IMG/VR virus record: IMGVR_UViG_3300017991_000037
Span: 1 to 37,089 of that record
From: a virus
Strand: one strand, 5' to 3'
Length of the DNA stretch: 37,089 nucleotides
Of the stretch, positions 124 through 37,089 are shown piece after piece. A program made the position numbers and the translations under genes. Numbering within the stretch: the first letter of the stretch is position 1; every line of letters starts with the position of its first letter. The notes below the pieces were generated by a model. It saw only the letters and a program-made list of their open reading frames with translations, was not told the DNA's origin and searched no databases.

Positions 124-253
124 AGACCCTCGCCCTGTTCCCGACCGTCGCAGTAGGCGAGATAGTGATGCCGCGTTTTCTTTGCTCCTCCGCCGTCGCC
201 TCCGTCAGCGCCCAACCCCCGTTGCCGTCTAATAGATAAATCTTTATTTTCAT
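1..253 (-). CDS. Hexapeptide-repeat (left-handed beta-helix) protein, N-terminal part; continues at 36707-37089
   Basis: This is the first 84 codons of a 170-aa protein that crosses the circle junction. It starts at ATG 253 behind an excellent AAGGAGGGGGA SD site, overlapping the TGA of the upstream small zinc protein. After a short N-terminal strand region (about 1-34) come hexapeptides of the type ATVGDG, ARVCDW, AKVGYG from residue 35 to about 100, eleven units in all. Such [small]-x-V-x-x-x units fold as a left-handed parallel beta-helix. The whole architecture (hexapeptides, then a GPIGSR segment and a C-terminal helical part) matches from memory a family common in phages and prophages whose function is unknown. 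No transferase active site is evident, so I assign no enzymatic role. Confidence 0.85.
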   Translation of the reverse strand, partial: MKIKIYLLDGNGGWALTEATAEEQRKRGITISPTATVGNRARVCDWATVGYRAKVCDEAKVGYGARVCDGATVCDWAKVGDGAT

Positions 254-278
254 TCCCCCTCCTTGCCCTTGATGGCAG
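250..278 (-). repeat. Gene-junction cassette copy 1 (shared tail plus SD)
   Basis: On the minus strand this reads a GCC-ATC-AAG-GGC core, then GGCAAGGAGGGGGAATGA. It encodes AIKGKEGE plus stop for the upstream gene, the SD for the downstream gene and its ATG. Four more copies lie at 34902, 35579, 36423 and 36707. Confidence 0.85.
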
Positions 279-399
279 CTTGCTCCGTGTAACACTCCTC
301 GCACCTGCGCCCGTCCTCGCACTCCTCGCCCTCATCCAACGCCAGCTTTTTCCCACAGTCCACACACTCCACAAATTCATCGTAAGTGTAATTGCTCAT
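250..399 (-). CDS. Small Cys-rich zinc-ribbon protein (49 aa)
   Basis: Forty-nine residues starting at ATG 399, which overlaps the TGA of the upstream gene. Cysteines sit at 12, 15, 27, 33 and 36 (C-x2-C then C-x2-C), a minimal zinc-ribbon pattern with an acidic loop (DEGEECEDG). The C-terminus is AAIKGKEGE, the cassette-encoded tail also found on the hexapeptide, 95-aa and radical SAM proteins. It likely binds one zinc ion; the role (DNA, RNA or protein contact) cannot be told. It is first in the cassette-linked cluster. Confidence 0.72.
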   Translation of the reverse strand: MSNYTYDEFVECVDCGKKLALDEGEECEDGRRCEECYTEQAAIKGKEGE

Positions 400-4804: not shown

Positions 4805-5032
4805 CTATTTCGCGTCAACTCGTAACGCCCGTGGCCTTTTTGTCGCTATCGTATTCTTTGGGGTATGGGGACGCCTGCCAAAACGATAGGGCCATAAAAC
4901 GCACGTACGTACGGTACAATTAGCAACTTCCGATGGCGACTCGGCGCAACAATCCAGACATTTAGCTCTTATCGCCTTTAGCGGCCTTAATGGCCTTTCC
5001 GGATTGTATTCTTGATGCTTCCACTTTTTCAT
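4805..5032 (-). CDS. Small Cys-rich conserved phage protein (75 aa)
   Basis: The core AIRAKCLDCCAESPSEVANC followed by TVRTCVLWPYRFGRRP is a pattern I recognise from many phage and prophage proteins of unknown function. Cysteines at 25, 28, 29, 39 and 44 suggest one zinc site, and the Arg-rich flanks suggest nucleic-acid contact. The gene starts inside the last 71 bases of the exonuclease gene, with GAGG as a modest SD, and ends 22 bases before the initiator ATG. Position next to replication and recombination genes is the usual context. Confidence 0.75.
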   Translation of the reverse strand: MKKWKHQEYNPERPLRPLKAIRAKCLDCCAESPSEVANCTVRTCVLWPYRFGRRPHTPKNTIATKRPRALRVDAK

Positions 5033-6212
5033 TTTTCTTGGCCTCTATCCGTACAATTGAGAGTTTGGTTTGCTTCCGAGTCTCTATAGTCTCGGAGGCT
5101 TCCTCTTTGAATTTGTCTATTTTTTCTTGCGGCAATATCGAGAAAAGCTCCTTCTTTGCTTCCTCGTAACTCGATGCGTCGAGCTTCAGGTATCTTGATA
5201 TATCGGCACCGTGCCTCCGAAATAGCTCGGATATTTTATCCGCAGGGAACCCGCGCCGCTCCTCGGCCTTCCACGCCCAACCCATGCTCCCGTCGTCTAT
5301 CGGCACAACGTCGGCTGCATTAGCAAGGTCGCCGAGATACTGGCGCAACGTCTCGCGCCGAGATTGATGTAGCTTAATCGCGGCCTCGACCTTCCGAAGC
5401 TCGTCGTGGGCCGCCTGCGCTGAAAGTATATTCTCTCCAGTACTCTTATATCGCCGCTTATACTCCGCGCACTTCGCGCGGATAGGACAGAGGTTACAGT
5501 TACGGTTTATCCTGGCCGGAAACTTTTTGCTGATAATTCCTTCGAGTATCTCGTCGATCCAACCCCTAATCCACTGTACCTCGTCTGGATCCACCTCGAC
5601 GCTATTCTCCAGATTATACCGGAACATATACTGCGTGAATTTTAGGCGCTTCAGCCCGGGCACGATATCAAGAGCGGCCAGCATATAGATATTCCCCTGC
5701 CGGTCTTTTCGCAGATCATCTTTCGAGAGTATGCGCCGTGCGTTCTTGTAATCCACGATATGCAGGCCGTCGCCCTCCATGTAGTCTATACGGTCGATGA
5801 TTACCTTGAGCCCGACGTTATGATCCTGACTATACGGAATGACTATCTCCGCCTCAGCATCATGAATAAATTCCGCAGTCTGAGCGAGGCGTAGACCTAA
5901 GTGCCTCAACCCACGTAATCCTTCGGTATAATCGTCCGGCGTAATCTCTGCCGTCAACATCTCCTTCCGAATAGCGGCTTTGAATATTCCCTCGATGTCA
6001 TCGGCTCCTATCTCCTTACCGTCGCGAATAGAGACATTCATCGCGCGGGCCGCCAAGTGCATTGCCGATCCGAGCCGCATATAATAGGTGCGCTCCAGTT
6101 GTAGGCCGTCGATATACTTGGCCTTATAGAGTCTCGGACAGTCGTGATACGTCTCGCACTGCGACCAGCTTATCCACGGCTTCGGAGTTTTACTTCGCTT
6201 TTGCTTTGGCAC
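4962..6212 (-). CDS. PD-(D/E)XK exonuclease with Fe-S cluster motif (Cas4/AddB-like), 416 aa
   Basis: Starts at GTG 6212 after GGAGGG, overlapping the bet gene by 23 bases. The nuclease core is clear: H52 in GSAMH, D140 in IIDRID, D154-Y-K156 and Q172 before a hydrophobic helix. This is the RecB-family PD-(D/E)XK order. Four cysteines, C25 (CPRLY) and C239-x2-C242-x5-C248 (CNLCPIRAKC), match the iron-staple Fe-S cluster of Cas4 and AddB. Residues 265-416 are a helical, charged extension not typical of minimal Cas4. Directly downstream of a Bet annealing protein, it most likely supplies the 5'-3' resection that makes single strands for annealing. No Cas genes are present. Confidence 0.82.
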   Translation of the reverse strand: MPKQKRSKTPKPWISWSQCETYHDCPRLYKAKYIDGLQLERTYYMRLGSAMHLAARAMNVSIRDGKEIGADDIEGIFKAAIRKEMLTAEITPDDYTEGLRGLRHLGLRLAQTAEFIHDAEAEIVIPYSQDHNVGLKVIIDRIDYMEGDGLHIVDYKNARRILSKDDLRKDRQGNIYMLAALDIVPGLKRLKFTQYMFRYNLENSVEVDPDEVQWIRGWIDEILEGIISKKFPARINRNCNLCPIRAKCAEYKRRYKSTGENILSAQAAHDELRKVEAAIKLHQSRRETLRQYLGDLANAADVVPIDDGSMGWAWKAEERRGFPADKISELFRRHGADISRYLKLDASSYEEAKKELFSILPQEKIDKFKEEASETIETRKQTKLSIVRIEAKKNEKVEASRIQSGKAIKAAKGDKS

Positions 6213-7161
6213 GGCTTCCCTCCTCGGCGACCTCGCCAGCTATAGCCCTCTCGCCCTTGTCCTTCTCGTCTACCTTCGACCGTAACTCGGAGATTATCTC
6301 GTCCAGCTTATCCTCCCCCAACTCCTTCGCGCTGATTACGTTGTAGCGGCGACGAAGAGCTTCGTGTATCTCGTCCTCGGTGTAGGGATTACCTGTCGTA
6401 GGATTGAGCAGTTGCTTCGAGAGGATATGAACCTGTTGGGCCTTCTTACCGATCCGTGCGACCTGCGCTGGATCAATCTGTATTTTGTCTGGGTCTTCGA
6501 CGCCCATCTCGTCGTGAGTATGTAGGCCCGCAAGCTCCCACGGAAACGCCCGACGTAACCCCTGCGACTCGGCGCACTTGGCGATCATCACTGGCCCCAT
6601 CGACTTCCACATAGCCGTGAGATCGCCGGACTTCTTTTTCTGTGCGTAATCATCCCACCGAGCGACTCCCCAAATAGGAAGCAACTGACCAGTAGACGGA
6701 TCGACATACCCTTTTCTAACTATACCTACTCTCGCGGCTGTCGGGTACGCATCCTCCTTGCTCGGTATCCAGACATCTTTCCAGCGCCCATCTTTGTCAC
6801 ACCATTCCGGCCCGATCTGTCCTAGATACTTGCCTGTCCTCTCGGCGATAAGCCGAAGCCCGTCGATGCCTACCTGCGTCACCATCTTATACTCCCAATC
6901 TCCCGACTTGCCCTGTTCTGGATTCCACTTTTCTGGATTCCATTCTCTCCTGCGGATCGAGTATATCTGCCTGAGTAGTGGATTGAGGCCTGTATGCTTG
7001 CAGACGTACAGGAACATTCTGAGTTCAAGATCAGACGCCCCTTTCGCAACTGTCCGCCTGATGAGATCAACTTCATCCCGCGAATACTGCTCTGCGATAG
7101 CTGTACTTTTCTCGGACTTCGCGGGCGGCTTTAGTTTGCTCGCCTTCTTCTCCTTCTTCAT
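6190..7161 (-). CDS. bet: Bet/RecT-family single-strand annealing protein (323 aa)
   Basis: ATG 7161 has an AAAGGAGAG SD. Residues about 45-235 carry the Bet signature: LYVCKHTGLNPLLRQIYSIR, VGIDGLRLIAERTGKYLGQ, a PIWGVARWDDY strand region and MIAKCAESQGLRRAFPWELA followed by GLHTHDEMG. Proteins of this family anneal complementary single strands and promote phage recombination. The Lys-rich N-terminus and the C-terminal helical tail (residues 245-323) are typical linker regions. The Fe-S exonuclease gene overlaps its end, forming a two-component recombination module. I use the symbol bet for the family. Confidence 0.9.
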   Translation of the reverse strand: MKKEKKASKLKPPAKSEKSTAIAEQYSRDEVDLIRRTVAKGASDLELRMFLYVCKHTGLNPLLRQIYSIRRREWNPEKWNPEQGKSGDWEYKMVTQVGIDGLRLIAERTGKYLGQIGPEWCDKDGRWKDVWIPSKEDAYPTAARVGIVRKGYVDPSTGQLLPIWGVARWDDYAQKKKSGDLTAMWKSMGPVMIAKCAESQGLRRAFPWELAGLHTHDEMGVEDPDKIQIDPAQVARIGKKAQQVHILSKQLLNPTTGNPYTEDEIHEALRRRYNVISAKELGEDKLDEIISELRSKVDEKDKGERAIAGEVAEEGSRAKAKAK

Positions 7162-7171
7162 TTTCTCTCCT

Positions 7172-7900
7172 TTAGTTTACCGCCCTTTTTGCCTCGCCGT
7201 GGAACCGCGCCTCGCCACCGCTGACCTCGCCCGTGGACTGGCCGTAGAACCGCGCCTTGCCACCGCTGACCGTGCCGGTGGACTGGCAGTAGAACCACGC
7301 CACGCCACCGCTGATCTCGCCCGTGGACTGGCCGTCGAACCGAGCCATGCCACCGCTGACCGTGCCAGCGGACTGGTTGTGGAACTGCGCCTCGCCACCG
7401 CTGATCTCGCCCGTGGACTGGCCGTAGAACCGCGCCTCGCCACCGCTGATCTCGCCCGTGGACTCGCCGTGGAACTGCGCCTCGCCACCGCTGACCTCGC
7501 CCGTGGACTGGTCGTAGAACCGCGCCTTGCCATCGCTGACTTCGCCGGTAGACCGGCCAACAAAAACCAAAAACTCGCCGTCCCGAACCTTTCTATCCCC
7601 CTTGCGTATGATATGCTCTTTCGCCCACGACTTCAACGCTCGCCTCGCCGCCACTTCGTGCTTCCCAGCCAGCCACGTGGGCCGGACTTGCTCATCCACC
7701 TTGAACTCCCACTTGCTCAGCGGCAGGGAGTAATCGCCACCAGGCGGCACTATCTCCACTCGCGCGAACGCCAGCTCATCCTTGTCCGCCGTATCATCCT
7801 TCAGTCCAGCTGAAAAAAGTATTTCATCATGGCTTGGGTCGTTTCCCATCGAAAAACATCGCCCGTCCCTACGCGCAATTCCCGACCACACCTTACACAT
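7172..7900 (-). CDS. Beta-solenoid protein with eight 15-residue repeats (242 aa)
   Basis: First large gene of the early block, at ATG 7900 behind AAGGGAGGG. Residues 1-110 form a domain I have seen in other phage and bacterial proteins of unknown function (SHDEILFSAGLKDD, then RVEIVPPGGDY, WEFKVDEQVRPTW, ALKSWAKEH). Residues 117-236 are eight perfect-length 15-mers of the type STGEVSGGEARFYGQ. The regular Val/Ile, Ala and Phe positions with Gly turns predict a beta-solenoid of one coil per repeat. Start at Met18 is possible but lacks the SD. The DNA repeat (45 bp) can expand or contract. Function unknown; solenoid proteins of phages include DNA mimics and binding scaffolds, which is only analogy here. 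Confidence 0.8.
   Translation of the reverse strand: MCKVWSGIARRDGRCFSMGNDPSHDEILFSAGLKDDTADKDELAFARVEIVPPGGDYSLPLSKWEFKVDEQVRPTWLAGKHEVAARRALKSWAKEHIIRKGDRKVRDGEFLVFVGRSTGEVSDGKARFYDQSTGEVSGGEAQFHGESTGEISGGEARFYGQSTGEISGGEAQFHNQSAGTVSGGMARFDGQSTGEISGGVAWFYCQSTGTVSGGKARFYGQSTGEVSGGEARFHGEAKRAVN
7193..7552 (-). repeat. Eight tandem 45-bp coding repeats
   Basis: Eight 45-bp units without spacers encode the STGEVSGGEARFYGQ-type repeats of the gene at 7172-7900. Copies differ by point changes (for example Glu/Thr at position 4, Gln/Glu at 15), so the array is not freshly expanded. All units keep frame and length exactly. Confidence 0.92.
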
Positions 7901-20139: not shown

Positions 20140-22368
20140 TTATTCTCCGTATTTGGGCGACCAATAAAATGGGTTACAATCCGCATAAGGATAAGGAGTC
20201 TTTGTGAAAGTATGCGTCGATGTAGAAGTGTAAGTATGTGTTGGAGTATGCGTATAAGTATATGTTGATGTGGCTGTAGGAGTTGATGTCGGAGTAAATG
20301 TTGGGGTATGCGTATAAGTATGAGTTGGCGTCGATGTTGGCGTATCGGTTGGTGTGGCTGTAGACGTAGCTGTGGGCGTAGCTGTAGGAGTATTGGTAGG
20401 AGTATCCGTTGGTGTAGCTGTTGATGTAGCCGTCGGTGTGTCCGTTGGTGTATCGGTAGGCGTAGCGGTATATGTCGGCGTTGATGTAGATGTATCCGTA
20501 AATGTCTCCGTACTCGTGGGCGTATCAGTGTACGTAGGAGTACTCGTAGGCGTGTCGGTGTATGTCGAAGTGCTCGTCGGTGTGTATGTGTAAGTGAATG
20601 TCGGAGTATCAGTATATGTGTGAGTTGGCGTATCTGTGTAAGTAAACGTCGGCGTTGATGTTGGGGTGTCCGTATACGTCGGCGTCGCCGTTGGTGTCGT
20701 CGTATAGGTCGGCGTACTGGTTGGCGTGCTTGTGTACGTCGGCGTCGCCGTTGGTGTACTCGTGTATGTAGGCGTGCTCGTTGGTGTCGCCGTATAGGTC
20801 GGTGTGCTTGTGGGCGTGCTTGTGTACGTCGGGGATGATGTTGGCGTAGCAGTATACGTCGACGTTGAAGTCGGAGTATCCGTATAAGTGGGCGTACTCG
20901 TAGGAGAAGCAGTTGGGGTAGCTGTAGGCGTCGAAGTAGGCGTGGCCGTGTACGTAGACGTACTTGTCGACGTGTTGGTGTAGGTAGAGGTATCCGTGTA
21001 AGTTAATGTCGATGTAGCGGTTGACGTATCAGTGGACGTATCAGTTGGGGTAGATGTAAATGTAGCCGTTGGCGTAGCTGTGGGCGTGTCCGTAGGCGTG
21101 GCTGTAGATGTCTCTGTGTCCGTGTATGTTGCTGTACTCGTAGGCGTATCCGTGTATGTCTCCGTAGCTGTAGGCGTGTCGGTCGGTGTACCGGTTGGGG
21201 TAGCTGTAGGAGTCGCGGTCGGCGTGTCAGTCGCCGTAGCGGTCGCCGTAGCGGTCGCCGTCGGCGTCGCGGTTGGCGTGTCCGTTGGTGTGTCGGTTGG
21301 AGTAGCAGTTGGTGTGTCGGTCGGTGTGGCTGTAGAGGTCGGCGTTTCCTCGGATTCGTACTCATACGCCCCGATGTCATCCGCCGCACCTTGTGGTCGG
21401 CTTACTCCCTCGATGTCGTCGTCTACACCGTATCCGCTTGCGTCCGTTCCGGCATCTCGGCAGTCAGCGGTTGACTTCAAGTGAAAATCACTGCCGTTAT
21501 CTACAAACTCGTCTGCGGCGACAATGGTTATACACCCCGACCCACTCCACGCCTCCGAATCCTCGGCGGCGCAATAACTGAATGCTCCTATAGCAGCGGG
21601 AGATGTCAACGATATATCGTCGTCGTTGTTAGCGAATATACAATTGACTACTGAAACAGGATCGTCCGCCTCTAACCCTATTCCGTCCGTTGCTCCCTGT
21701 ATTGTGCAGTTCACAAATTCAGCGGAATGATCAGTCTGACTTCCGGTTATTTTGACAACGTAATCCGTTCCAGAAGTGCCCAAAAATAAACAATTGTGAA
21801 ATTGTACTGTATGTGTCGTTCCCAAAGTTCCTACTCCCCACAATACAAGTTCCGTTTCATCTCCGGTAGATTCAAAATAGCACTGATAAAAAACATTTGG
21901 GTTTGAATATCCACGAAAATTAGTGTCGGTCTGTATTAACCTAAAGTAGTTCACATCTGTCGTGAAGTATATATCTTTGAACTGATAGGCATTCGATTGT
22001 TGATCGCCCTCGAACGCCAATCCCGTTCCGCCACCAATTGTCATCGGCATCGAAGTAGAAGCGCCTAAAAATGTAATTATTTCATCGGTCTGGTCGTTGT
22101 ATTTGTTATAAATCGTAGACGTGCTTCCGGATTTTTCAATAGTCGGCGCAAAGCCGGAACCAGCAAATATAGTTACTGCCTTGTCGGTATTTATTCGCTC
22201 ATCGTAAGTTGCGTTATCTCGTATCTCGATTGAGTCTCCGTCGGATGACGCACCGAGAGCAGTGTTAATCGTAGTGTAGTCGCACCCGCTTGCGCATACC
22301 GTCCGATTCGTTGCTCCAGCAATGGTGCAAGCTAAAAGCGAGCATATCAGAAGTATTGCTTTTCTCAT
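20140..22368 (-). CDS. Secreted beta-helix protein with long Thr/Pro-rich repeat stalk (742 aa)
   Basis: ATG 22368 overlaps the upstream TAA. A Sec signal peptide ([19 protein letters not shown]) starts the protein; LLAC at 11-14 is a weak lipobox. Residues about 25-335 form a right-handed parallel beta-helix of the pectate-lyase type ([35 protein letters not shown]), ending with [16 protein letters not shown], a motif common at the end of such secreted helices. Residues 342-725 are almost pure TPTxTPTx repeats, a rigid mucin-like stalk. The tail is [15 protein letters not shown]. Nothing marks it as a virion protein although it sits amid head and neck genes. It may coat the infected cell or the released particle. 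Confidence 0.82.
20194..21345 (-). repeat. Degenerate Thr-Pro coding repeat (384 residues)
   Basis: About 1.15 kb of low-complexity coding sequence made of 6-12-bp units encoding TPT, TDT, TAT and TYT combinations. Codons vary between units (ACG, ACA, ACC, ACT all used for Thr), so the protein pattern is kept while the DNA has diverged, which argues for selection on the peptide. Shadow frames through it (poly-Val-Gly and Arg/Pro-rich) are artefacts. Confidence 0.9.
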
Positions 22369-34624: not shown

Positions 34625-34750
34625 TTATCCTATCGGCACTCTGTTTCCGCACTTACAACACACCCACCACCAGCCTTCATTGCCATCATAATATTTTGAC
34701 CACTCAGCCGGATCATCGTTTCCGCATTTGTGGCATTTCAATGGTGGCAT
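34625..34750 (-). CDS. Tiny zinc-ribbon protein (41 aa)
   Basis: ATG 34750 overlaps the upstream TAA (TAATG), with GGGAGAGAAA as SD. C6-x2-C9 and C31-x2-C34 (CHKCGNDDPAEW and VCCKCGNRVPIG) make a complete zinc ribbon in 41 residues with three consecutive Trp before the second knuckle. It is the last gene before terS. Function unknown. Confidence 0.72.
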   Translation of the reverse strand: MPPLKCHKCGNDDPAEWSKYYDGNEGWWWVCCKCGNRVPIG

Positions 34751-34905
34751 TATTTCTCTCCCATGTCTTTGTATATATCCTCATTCTCAATCTCAAGTAT
34801 CTCGATGTCACGCTCCATCCTCTTGATTTTGTCTCGCAACTGGTGTATCTTCGCGCGGTTCTTGATAAATTGCTTTCTCAATGCCTCTCGTGTTGTTGGG
34901 TTCAT
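34750..34905 (-). CDS. Small coiled-coil protein (51 aa)
   Basis: ATG 34905 follows the cassette SD GGCAAGGAGGGA. The protein is one continuous charged helix with heptad spacing (IKNRAKIHQLRDKIKRMERD, IEILEIENEDIYKDMG), so a coiled-coil dimer is likely. The frame is open further upstream, but only through cassette sequence reading ALRGKEGI, so the internal ATG with its SD is the start. Confidence 0.7.
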   Translation of the reverse strand: MNPTTREALRKQFIKNRAKIHQLRDKIKRMERDIEILEIENEDIYKDMGEK

Positions 34906-34931
34906 TATTCCCTCCTTGCCTCGTAGGGCGG
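34902..34931 (-). repeat. Gene-junction cassette copy 2
   Basis: Minus strand: CCGCCCTACGAGGCAAGGAG then GGAATAATG. It follows the methylase stop (34932) and ends at the ATG of the coiled-coil gene. Unlike the others, the upstream protein does not use the LRGKEG reading frame here because its stop comes just before it. Confidence 0.85.
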
Positions 34932-35582
34932 TTAGAATAATACTTCTTGGCGGCAACGATTGGCTGCTATCTCACAATATTTTTCCTCAAGCTCAATACC
35001 AATGGCCTTCCGGCCCAAGTCTTTCGCGGCCCTCAAAGTAGTTCCAGAGCCACAAAAGGGGTCGAGAATAATGCCCAGCTCGGGACAAGCTCTTTCAATC
35101 AACCAAGTGGCCCACCTCAATGGCTTTGGACATGGATGCCCGTTCTTGCCCATAACTTCATTGTTAATCACTGAAAAGTAATCGTGCATCTGAACGCCTG
35201 GATTCTTTCCGTAAACCAGCATCGGTTCCCAGTCATTAAACCCAACAAAAGCATGGTGACCAGGGCTACCCTTATACCAGCAAATCAACCAGTCGGGAGG
35301 ATAGTTCTGATATATCCACGGCAGCGCTTTTATTCGGCAACAGGGTAGGATGCTCATTGTTGCCACAGACTTAATGAGCGGTAGTATATCTGACATTAAT
35401 CTAAACCAGTTTTCCTCGGTATCGTCATAACTGGCATACTCTATACCAACCCCATACGGCGGGTCAGTCAGCATCAAGTCCACCGTCGGCAGCAACGGCA
35501 ATATCTCCCGGCAGTCCCCGTGCGCTATTGCAACGGAGCCGTCGGAGTAATACCAGTCAATGCCAGCGGGCGGCCAGGTCAT
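34932..35582 (-). CDS. DNA methyltransferase, beta-type amino MTase (216 aa)
   Basis: Catalytic motif IV DPPY at 40-43 comes before the SAM-binding motif I DPFCGSGTT at 174-182, the order of beta-class adenine-N6 or cytosine-N4 methyltransferases. Further parts include HPCPKPLRWATWLIE and GIELEEKYCEIA. No separate target recognition domain is evident at 216 aa, so recognition lies in the 50-140 region. There is no cognate restriction gene, so it is a solitary phage enzyme, likely protecting DNA or altering expression. ATG 35582 overlaps the TGA of the radical SAM gene within a junction cassette. Confidence 0.85.
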   Translation of the reverse strand: MTWPPAGIDWYYSDGSVAIAHGDCREILPLLPTVDLMLTDPPYGVGIEYASYDDTEENWFRLMSDILPLIKSVATMSILPCCRIKALPWIYQNYPPDWLICWYKGSPGHHAFVGFNDWEPMLVYGKNPGVQMHDYFSVINNEVMGKNGHPCPKPLRWATWLIERACPELGIILDPFCGSGTTLRAAKDLGRKAIGIELEEKYCEIAANRCRQEVLF

Positions 35583-35607
35583 TCCCCCTCCTTGCCCCGT
35601 AGGGCGG
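35579..35607 (-). repeat. Gene-junction cassette copy 3
   Basis: Minus strand: CCGCCCTACGGGGCAAGGAG then GGGGAATGA. It encodes TALRGKEGE plus stop of the radical SAM protein and the SD plus ATG of the methylase gene. Confidence 0.88.
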
Positions 35608-36406
35608 TTATTTTAGTCCTAATTATTGCCGGTCTGCTCCATTCTCGCGCCAATCGCTTCCACGCTTTCAATCGTTCTCCATTCGCCCCTACCCCGTCAT
35701 ACAGTTGCGCGAAAGGCATAGCCCCGGCCATCAGCGTTCTATTCAGTCTGGCCGTTGCCGCTTCCATCGTTTCATCGAATCCGATCAGAACATAGCACCG
35801 CACCTTGTCTTGCGACAATCCGGCCTCCCGCAACAAGTGTATTCCTCGTAGCGATAATTTCTCCCGTTGTCCATCGTTGGCCGTCCATACATCCAGCGGT
35901 TTAAGTCGCGCTATCATCTCGGCTTTGCGCCTGGTGATATAGCATCCGTCCAGCCCCCCTAAAAACCTGACTTGCTTTTGCCCCGCCAACATTTCAAACA
36001 CCCGCTCCTGGTGCGCTTCGCTACACGCCAAGATGTTATTGTCCTGCAAAATATTCCCCTCGGTAATCGGCAATTCCCTGATTCCGCCCTCGCGCCGCCA
36101 CACATAGCAGAACGGGCAACGATGCGGACACCCTCGACTAGTATGGACTATCCCTTTTTTCACGAACCTCCCCGGCTCAAAGCGATCACCACCGTCGGCT
36201 CCGAAGGCGGGGCCGCCAATTTCAACGTTCTCGGAATATGCCAGCCACATAGATTGCAACCGCAATGATTCGTTAATATCCCCGGTGAACACAACGGATA
36301 TTTCCACTAGGTCGTAGTCCCTCGGCGTGAATAAATCAGGCGCACCGACAACCGCTTCGTCTGGTGTCTGACTAGTCCGCCTGGGCACTACCAGCAATCG
36401 CTTCAT
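35579..36406 (-). CDS. Radical SAM enzyme (275 aa)
   Basis: The canonical 4Fe-4S motif C93-x3-C97-x2-C100 sits in TSRGCPHRCPFCYVWRREGG. Downstream blocks (ITEGNILQDNNILACSEAHQ, KQVRFLGGLDGCYITRRKAE, KVRCYVLIGFDETMEAATAR, GAMPFAQLYDGVGANG) complete the barrel of a family I recall in phages and environmental bacteria, often called Fe-S oxidoreductase, with unknown substrate. The N-terminal 85 residues (PRDYDLVEISVVFTGDINES) look like a small B12-type or Rossmann-like segment. Next to a DNA methylase, a nucleic-acid modification is a fair guess, not shown. It ends with the shared LRGKEGE tail. Confidence 0.85.
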   Translation of the reverse strand: MKRLLVVPRRTSQTPDEAVVGAPDLFTPRDYDLVEISVVFTGDINESLRLQSMWLAYSENVEIGGPAFGADGGDRFEPGRFVKKGIVHTSRGCPHRCPFCYVWRREGGIRELPITEGNILQDNNILACSEAHQERVFEMLAGQKQVRFLGGLDGCYITRRKAEMIARLKPLDVWTANDGQREKLSLRGIHLLREAGLSQDKVRCYVLIGFDETMEAATARLNRTLMAGAMPFAQLYDGVGANGERLKAWKRLAREWSRPAIIRTKITALRGKEGE

Positions 36407-36426
36407 TTTCGCTCCGCCTTGCTCAT
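36403..36426 (-). CDS. Seven-codon coupling ORF before the radical SAM gene
   Basis: ATG 36426 overlaps the TGA of the 95-aa gene at a junction cassette and reads MSKAERK before TGA 36403, which overlaps the radical SAM ATG (AAAATGAAG). It has the good cassette SD, while the radical SAM start has only AAGGCGGAG within this mini-ORF. It may translationally couple the two genes or be the remnant of a gene replaced by the radical SAM gene. Confidence 0.4.
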   Translation of the reverse strand: MSKAERK

Positions 36427-36451
36427 CTCCCCTCCTTGCCCCGTAGGGCGG
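36423..36451 (-). repeat. Gene-junction cassette copy 4
   Basis: Minus strand: CCGCCCTACGGGGCAAGGAG then GGGAGATGA. Encodes AALRGKEGR plus stop of the 95-aa protein and the SD/ATG of the seven-codon ORF before the radical SAM gene. Confidence 0.88.
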
Positions 36452-36710
36452 CTATCTCAGCGTCAAATGCGCGGTCAACAACCAGGGCGTCATCAAGCGT
36501 GGAGAGCTTCAGCGCCAGCGCCTTCTTCACCCGCTCCAGCGCGGCGATCGCATCGGTGTGGTCGGAGGTGCTGGTATTCATCGCTGCGATGAAGCCGCAG
36601 CGAAACGCTTGCCTAGCACAATGCGCCACAGCGTTGGAAGCGTCAATCCACCCACTGTAATCTTTCGCCAGCTTCTCCATCACCTGCTCATACGGGAGTT
36701 CGTCGCTCAT
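36423..36710 (-). CDS. Small helical hypothetical protein (95 aa)
   Basis: ATG 36710 overlaps the TGA of the hexapeptide gene behind AAGGAGGGGGA. The sequence is helical: YEQVMEKLAKDYSGWIDASN, AVAHCARQAFRCGFIAAMNT, then a coiled-coil-like DAIAALERVKKALALKLSTL. It ends AEIAALRGKEGR, the cassette tail. Not recognised. It is one of the interchangeable modules of this cluster. Confidence 0.7.
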   Translation of the reverse strand: MSDELPYEQVMEKLAKDYSGWIDASNAVAHCARQAFRCGFIAAMNTSTSDHTDAIAALERVKKALALKLSTLDDALVVDRAFDAEIAALRGKEGR

Positions 36711-36735
36711 TCCCCCTCCTTGCCCTTAAGGGAGG
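36707..36735 (-). repeat. Gene-junction cassette copy 5
   Basis: Minus strand: CCTCCCTTAAGGGCAAGGAG then GGGGAATGA. Encodes SLKGKEGE plus stop of the hexapeptide protein and the SD/ATG of the 95-aa gene. The left part differs from copies 2-4 but the GGCAAGGAGGGG core is identical. Confidence 0.85.
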
Positions 36736-37089
36736 CAGCGAATATCCCTATTGCCCAATCGTACTCCTCGCGGTGCTCGTGCCCGAGCTTGTAGGTCGCG
36801 GCCACTTGCTGTCGGAACTCGGCCAGCGGCCCAGACCAGCAACCGCAGAACACTACGTCGTGCTCCGAATCATACCACGTCGTTGCCTTGCGGCTACCTA
36901 TCGGGCCTGCCGGTACCATCGAGCGCGTTAGCGTCGCCCCGTCGCCGACCGTTGCCCCGTCGCCGACCGTTGCCCCGTCGCCGACCTTCGCCCAGTCGCA
37001 GACCGTCGCCCCGTCGCAGACCCTCGCCCCGTAGCCTACCTTTGCCTCGTCGCAGACCTTCGCCCTGTAGCCTACCGTCGCCCAGTCGC
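36707..37089 (-). CDS. Hexapeptide-repeat protein, C-terminal part; begins at 253
   Basis: Continuation of the gene that begins at 253. The frame is open from the window end to TGA at 36707. It holds the last hexapeptide units, then a motif reading VPAGPIGSRKATTWY, a CGCWSG segment and a helical tail. The conserved C-terminal domain (GPIGSR, CGC, G-L-x-E-F, H-x-x-E-Y) is what I recognise from the phage hexapeptide family. The protein ends SLKGKEGE, the tail shared with three neighbouring unrelated proteins and encoded by the junction cassette. The stop codon overlaps the ATG of the next gene. An internal ATG at 36919 would give only the C-terminal domain, but the upstream frame and SD favour the long form. 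Confidence 0.85.
   Translation of the reverse strand, partial: DWATVGYRAKVCDEAKVGYGARVCDGATVCDWAKVGDGATVGDGATVGDGATLTRSMVPAGPIGSRKATTWYDSEHDVVFCGCWSGPLAEFRQQVAATYKLGHEHREEYDWAIGIFAASLKGKEGE
36967..37089. repeat. 123-bp direct terminal repeat, right copy
   Basis: Exact copy of the first 123 bases. Joining the two copies restores an uninterrupted reading frame through the hexapeptide-repeat gene, which supports circularity. The sequence is internally repetitive (18-bp hexapeptide units), so the real number of units here could be miscounted in a short-read assembly. Confidence 0.93.

Follow-up and report, generated by a model that had tools for sequence, protein, structure and literature searches.

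What makes a run of adjacent and otherwise unrelated phage genes end in the same few residues and pass on to the next gene through the same short sequence? This question is raised by the viral record IMGVR_UViG_3300017991_000037, which was analysed over a stretch of 37,089 nt (hereafter the window). A cassette of 20–30 bp with the core GGCAAGGAGGG(G/A) occurs in it in five copies, each lying at a gene junction:

250..278, minus strand: cassette copy 1, end of the zinc-ribbon gene (tail AIKGKEGE*), SD AAGGAGG, ATGA overlap with the hexapeptide start
34902..34931, minus strand: cassette copy 2, non-coding after the TAA of the methyltransferase, SD and ATG of g50
35579..35607, minus strand: cassette copy 3, end of the radical SAM gene (tail TALRGKEGE*), SD, ATGA overlap with the methyltransferase start
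36423..36451, minus strand: cassette copy 4, end of the 95-aa gene (tail AALRGKEGR*), SD, ATGA overlap with a 7-codon ORF
36707..36735, minus strand: cassette copy 5, end of the hexapeptide gene (tail ASLKGKEGE*), SD, ATGA overlap with the 95-aa start

The genes joined in this way, together with the recombination genes of the phage, are:

250..399, minus strand: zinc-ribbon-like gene, 49 aa, with CxxC motifs; the first gene to end in a cassette
36707..37089, continuing as 1–253 across the circle junction, minus strand: hexapeptide-repeat gene, 170 aa (Pfam Hexapep, 2e-9)
36423..36710, minus strand: 95-aa gene with a coiled-coil-like C-terminus, DAEIAALRGKEGR
36402..36425, minus strand: 7-codon ORF, MSKAERK*, opened by the ATG of copy 4 (36425), its stop overlapping the radical SAM start
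35579..36406, minus strand: radical SAM gene, 275 aa (PHROG 9298, 2.5e-26 over residues 84–264)
34932..35582, minus strand: DNA N4/N6 methyltransferase, 216 aa (Pfam PF01555, 8e-26), without the tail
34750..34905, minus strand: g50, 51 aa, coiled-coil-like, its SD provided by copy 2
6190..7161, minus strand: RecT-like single-strand annealing protein (PHROG 2780, 2.5e-54)
4962..6212, minus strand: exonuclease (PHROG 69, 3.6e-24)

In the direction of transcription the order is zinc ribbon, copy 1, hexapeptide, copy 5, 95-aa gene, copy 4, 7-codon ORF and radical SAM, copy 3, methyltransferase, copy 2, g50 and the terminase genes, so that the accessory genes of the block have the early genes on one side and the terminase genes on the other. 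The circular map is supported by a 123-bp terminal repeat, which however lies inside the repetitive hexapeptide gene. Pfam and PHROG searches with the 49-aa zinc-ribbon-like protein, family searches with the 95-aa protein, and tblastn searches of phages with the hexapeptide and 95-aa proteins all returned no match.

A preliminary description of this DNA had held that one sequence recurs at five junctions and nowhere else, and both parts of that claim stand. A scan with GGCAAGGAGGGG, allowing at most one mismatch, gave five minus-strand matches (256–267, 34909–34920, 35585–35596, 36429–36440 and 36713–36724) where 0.18 would be expected by chance; none of 100 shuffles reached five, and the scan found no copy in the window beyond the five junctions. 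A repeat search placed all five in a single 38-nt family (D5). When junctions were anchored on the SD and the 18 nt upstream of it compared, every one of the ten cassette pairs agreed at 9–17 of the 18 positions, whereas the 1,316 other junction pairs averaged 4.7 and reached 12 at most. Perfect identity between copies runs to 19–25 bp; copies 2, 3 and 4 form one subtype (CCGCCCTACGRGGCAAGGAGGG), and copies 1 and 5 another (AAGGGCAAGGAGGGGGAATGA). The five junctions are also consecutive, for which the chance probability with 5 of 54 junctions is about 2e-5. It had further been proposed that the copies bound every gene from 399 to 34905; the unbroken run of junctions agrees with this, except that the zinc-ribbon gene's own start at 399 has an ordinary SD.

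Every copy carries AAGGAGG 4–5 nt ahead of a start codon, and four of the five encode the tail (A/S)(L/I)(R/K)GKEG(E/R)* on the very proteins to which it had been ascribed (zinc ribbon, hexapeptide, 95-aa and radical SAM). The description also had each copy supply an SD and an overlapping ATG for the next gene. This is right for the SD and for the exact ATGA stop-start overlap of copies 1, 3, 4 and 5; the overlap is inexact in copy 2, and the ATG of copy 4 opens only the 7-codon ORF, at whose stop the radical SAM gene starts (36406). Judging from its sequence, this ORF may be a relic of the start of a replaced gene.

A relaxed DNA-pattern scan that was blind to phage relatedness returned at least 118 stretches, and among the matches listed there was one multi-copy relative, IMGVR_UViG_3300032046_000066 (G003; 42,497 bp with a 127-bp end repeat; loci L267–L269), which has four exact cassette copies within 1.4 kb. 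Its early proteins are related to those of the window (RecT 47%, exonuclease 43%, and p156, p172 and p153 34–42% amino acid identity), and its terminase, portal and capsid show no recognisable homology to the window's. The cassettes lie between the p153 homologue (p153') and g50'/TerS, which is the matching place in the window, and in both genomes the final cassette provides the SD of g50 (36% over 42 aa, E 0.006). The genes in between are others: a 95-aa zinc-binding-like, a coiled-coil-like, a 117-aa zinc-ribbon-like, a 47-aa, a second coiled-coil-like and a 72-aa gene. Nothing among them is convincingly homologous to the hexapeptide, radical SAM or methyltransferase gene of the window, the pairwise matches being short and mostly confined to the tail. 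Since the final cassette precedes g50 in both phages and the genes between the cassettes differ, the joint stayed and the genes changed. Variable gene content between conserved cassettes in relatives was the check that the preliminary description had put forward for its swap model, and in this relative the outcome is positive.

Within the relative's block two junctions, after p117 and p47, are without a cassette. Several details suggest recombination among the copies. Two unrelated genes of the relative have 25 identical nucleotides in common (GGCCGACGGCAAGGAGGGGAAATGA), and its copy 3 (TALRGKADGKEGK) looks as though two joint types had been fused. Immediately ahead of the start codon, copies from one genome resemble one another more closely than they resemble those of the other genome: the heptamer that includes the start is GGAATGA in three copies of the window and GAAATGA in three of the relative.

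Other searches added more distant connections. Searching viral contigs with TerL or radical SAM as single proteins yielded no relatives; a TerL alignment search returned 80 loci, including two distant relatives (L017 and L064) with 34–41% amino acid identity in TerL and less in the head proteins, and the cassette is absent from both. G003 shares the window's early module (RecT, Exo, p156, p172, p153), and L017 and L064 share the window's head and terminase proteins; the early/late module split is clear, with the cassette block at the boundary. Protein and DNA-pattern searches of the available collections turned up no close relative of the window. A further contig (G004) has one cassette copy with a similar upstream sequence, CTAACCGCCCCTACGGGCAAGGAGGG, which is suggestive at most. 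We set aside as background 42 single-copy matches in unrelated bacteria from a genome contig scan and a lone copy of GGCAAGGAGGGGRARTGA in each of six other contigs. In a set of 212 sources with 2.4 Mb of viral DNA, biased by how the loci were fetched, a 16-mer start repeat containing an SD reaches three or more copies in the window and G003 only; with 13-mers they are joined by two contigs, G005 and L052. The former (L273) is an unrelated GC-rich contig of 23.7 kb with three joints of the form GATCC(G/T)GTCGGCAAGGAGG(G/C)GTGATG and tails DPVGKE(G/A).

The relaxed scan also brought in contigs that we think, from their domains, are enterobacterial prophages, and in these a similar joint, GGCAAGGAGGGGTGATG, is found; an E. 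coli genome search for it gave no match. It probably arose independently of the window cassette. Several upstream protein types, all ending GKEG*, are connected through it to at least eight different downstream genes; the upstream types include DUF3850/DUF551 and others with the endings RAAMLAAP, MANAMTP and RAAMLESL. Over the 861 bp that finish at the last base of GGCAAGGAGGGGTGATG, two of these contigs, L121 and L196, have 99.8% identity, and past that base they diverge; L196 in turn matches L110 at 96% identity beginning 7 bp ahead of the joint, the genes upstream being different. Taken together, the two comparisons make L196 look like a recombinant whose breakpoint falls within a stretch of 24 bp. 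The preliminary idea of a swap joint is thus supported in part: in the phage lineage itself by the variable genes between cassettes, with the breakpoints coming only from unrelated prophages with a similar joint. Five more contigs (L100, L182, L184, L187 and L190) have accessory regions linked by GGCAAGGAGGGGTGATG, and there too unrelated proteins end in GKEG*. When these prophage contigs are compared in pairs, unrelated genes are separated by further islands of 20–55 bp, some of which include an SD or a start codon.

We read the cassette as a short boundary sequence with translation signals that moves with accessory genes, and give this reading a probability of roughly two in three. As a single unit, the joint closes the upstream gene with its final codons and stop, provides a strong SD (AAGGAGG) and, by overlap, starts the gene that follows; because every joint is alike, homologous recombination between joints could add, remove or exchange a gene. 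Such exchange would leave the translation of the neighbours intact, and the GKEG tail would be a by-product, acquired by any gene that enters the joint in the frame ending at TGA. The Bet and exonuclease of the preliminary description were recovered in the searches as the RecT-like annealase and the exonuclease listed above, and these are the probable agents of recombination. We infer that in this lineage the arrangement came about through recombination at the joints, with RecT as the enzyme responsible. For Red-beta, 23–27 bp is the minimal efficient pairing segment, and for RecA 31–34 bp (PMC3945230); the 19–25 bp of perfect identity between cassette copies is at or just below the Red-beta minimum and below that of RecA. 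The shortness of this identity counts against the reading, as do the two junctions in the G003 block that have no cassette, the 7-codon ORF in place of a full gene behind copy 4, and the existence of start-associated repeats, in cluster K phages (PMC3203893) and in L052, which may have no part in exchange. A tentative extension, which we hold to be possible though against the balance of probability, is that the joint is kept as a standard docking sequence, with selection keeping the accessory-gene joints alike and homogenised within each genome. Alikeness would then be favoured since single operon genes could be exchanged without loss of translation, and the C-terminal residues would be a scar.

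The alternatives differ in what they take to be conserved. If the C-terminal GKEG peptide were itself functional, as a common tag or interaction motif under protein-level selection, the four window proteins and four G003 proteins that end GKEG(E/R/K) would be explained, and the preliminary description had offered this as its alternative. It fared poorly, and we regard it as very improbable. Wherever a family could be checked, the tail does not belong to it: the PHROG 7964 match of the hexapeptide protein covers residues 31–162 of 170, the PHROG 9298 match of the radical SAM protein ends at residue 264 of 275, and in the prophage analogue the DUF551 match ends at residue 196 of 200, in each case leaving the tail outside. 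Methyltransferase homologues end without the tail and align to residue 215–216, so that the TAA at the cassette edge is the natural C-terminus and copy 2 is not translated as a tail. That the sequence is kept in this non-coding copy and that the tail falls outside the checked families argue for conservation of the DNA and not of the peptide. The GGC glycine codon shows no synonymous variation either, though the searches selected for GGCAAGG, and the constant frame needs no peptide selection because the TGA of the joint is reached in a single frame out of three. Coincidence, on the ground that a strong SD with an overlapping stop fits few sequences and that AAGGAGG and stop-start overlaps occur at other window junctions too, has a practically negligible probability given the shuffle and junction-pair statistics and the finding that the sole other four-copy contig among the matches listed, G003, is a genuine relative.

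The cassette might instead be an SAS-type signal, tied to gene starts, that controls the translation of these genes together, any role in exchange being incidental. Each copy does set AAGGAGG 4–5 nt before a start, which with stop-start coupling, and perhaps a bound factor, would suit such control; the SAS of cluster K phages are 13-bp AGGAG repeats 3–7 bp before the starts of unrelated genes (PMC3203893); and the 97-kb viral contig L052 has, between 2207 and 20616, 11 dispersed SAS-like copies of CCAAGGAGTGG directly before start codons. Several features nevertheless make this account unlikely. The SD of the cassettes is not exceptional in a genome where several genes have SD matches of 8–9 nt, the similarity extends 12–18 nt upstream of the SD into coding sequence, and the copies are strictly consecutive, unlike the dispersed SAS or those of L052. 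Copies 3 and 4 have a potential RNA hairpin (GCCC-UACG-GGGC) ahead of the SD, with similar stems elsewhere, which was no better than in shuffles. A selected translation signal and an exchange joint are not mutually exclusive. More improbable is copying within the genome without exchange, by which template switching or gene conversion would have duplicated the 95-aa coiled-coil-like gene's 3' end (DAEIAALRGKEG) onto the ends of its neighbours. The longest similarity, DAE(I/L)xAL..., is common to this gene and the two coiled-coil-like genes of G003, and the greater likeness of copies within each genome agrees with copying; alone, however, it leaves unexplained the complete gene turnover in G003 and the breakpoints at joints elsewhere.

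The idea of boundary sequences originated with lambdoid phages. In T4-type phages, mobile regulatory cassettes are repeated intergenic elements for which module shuffling by homologous recombination has been proposed; these are a promoter or terminator between modules, and the joint of the window is a stop-SD-start unit inside an operon. The proposed exchange joint itself is of a known kind, as seen in lambdoid boundary sequences, Island3 gp67/gp68 and the cluster K SAS. Short conserved boundary sequences have been proposed as recombination sites between the modules of mosaic phages (PMC3029335). The cassette resembles them in being a short junction sequence with different genes on either side and a proposed role in homologous recombination: the same sequence lies at several junctions with unrelated flanking genes, and gene content differs between conserved joints in G003. 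It departs from them in occupying five consecutive junctions of one genome and in overlapping coding sequence, SD and start. In phage Island3 the unrelated proteins gp67 and gp68 have the same 18 C-terminal residues, with a 60-bp repeat at both 3' ends, and Brujita has one recombinant copy of this repeat without the second gene (PMC3029335). The Island3 repeat, like the cassette, gives unrelated proteins one C-terminal sequence; it is a single two-copy event of about 50–60 bp, whereas the cassette has five and four copies in two genomes, measures 20–30 bp and includes the next SD. The cluster K SAS (13 bp, consensus GGGATAGGAGCCC) occurs in 11–19 copies over the non-structural half of the genome (PMC3203893). 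Both it and the cassette are repeated SD-containing elements a few nucleotides before the starts of unrelated genes, and the cassette falls within the 3–7 bp upstream range of the SAS. However, GGCAAGGAGGGG does not fit the SAS consensus within two deviations, having only the AGGAG core in common, the cassette is confined to consecutive junctions rather than spread across the non-structural half, and no common C-terminal tail has been reported for the SAS (PMC3203893). What is new in the window is the consecutive multi-copy form that adds tails, combining the features of Island3 and the SAS over consecutive junctions.

It is an old question whether phage mosaicism arises via conserved boundary sequences or by random illegitimate joining, and at most mosaic boundaries no boundary sequences can be found (PMC3029335). 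What looks like an exchange joint, itself an old idea, is seldom visible as clearly as here, and two concrete test cases are at hand: the same joint with replaced genes in two distant phages, and prophage breakpoints in a 24-bp interval. Annotators are also warned that when unrelated phage proteins have a C-terminal motif in common, it can reflect a scar in the DNA rather than a function. The window has two other kinds of repeat: the gene at 7172–7900 contains a tandem coding repeat with a 45-bp period, and the 742-aa gene at 20140–22368, which has matches in G003 and G004, a degenerate repeat with 12-bp-type spacing.
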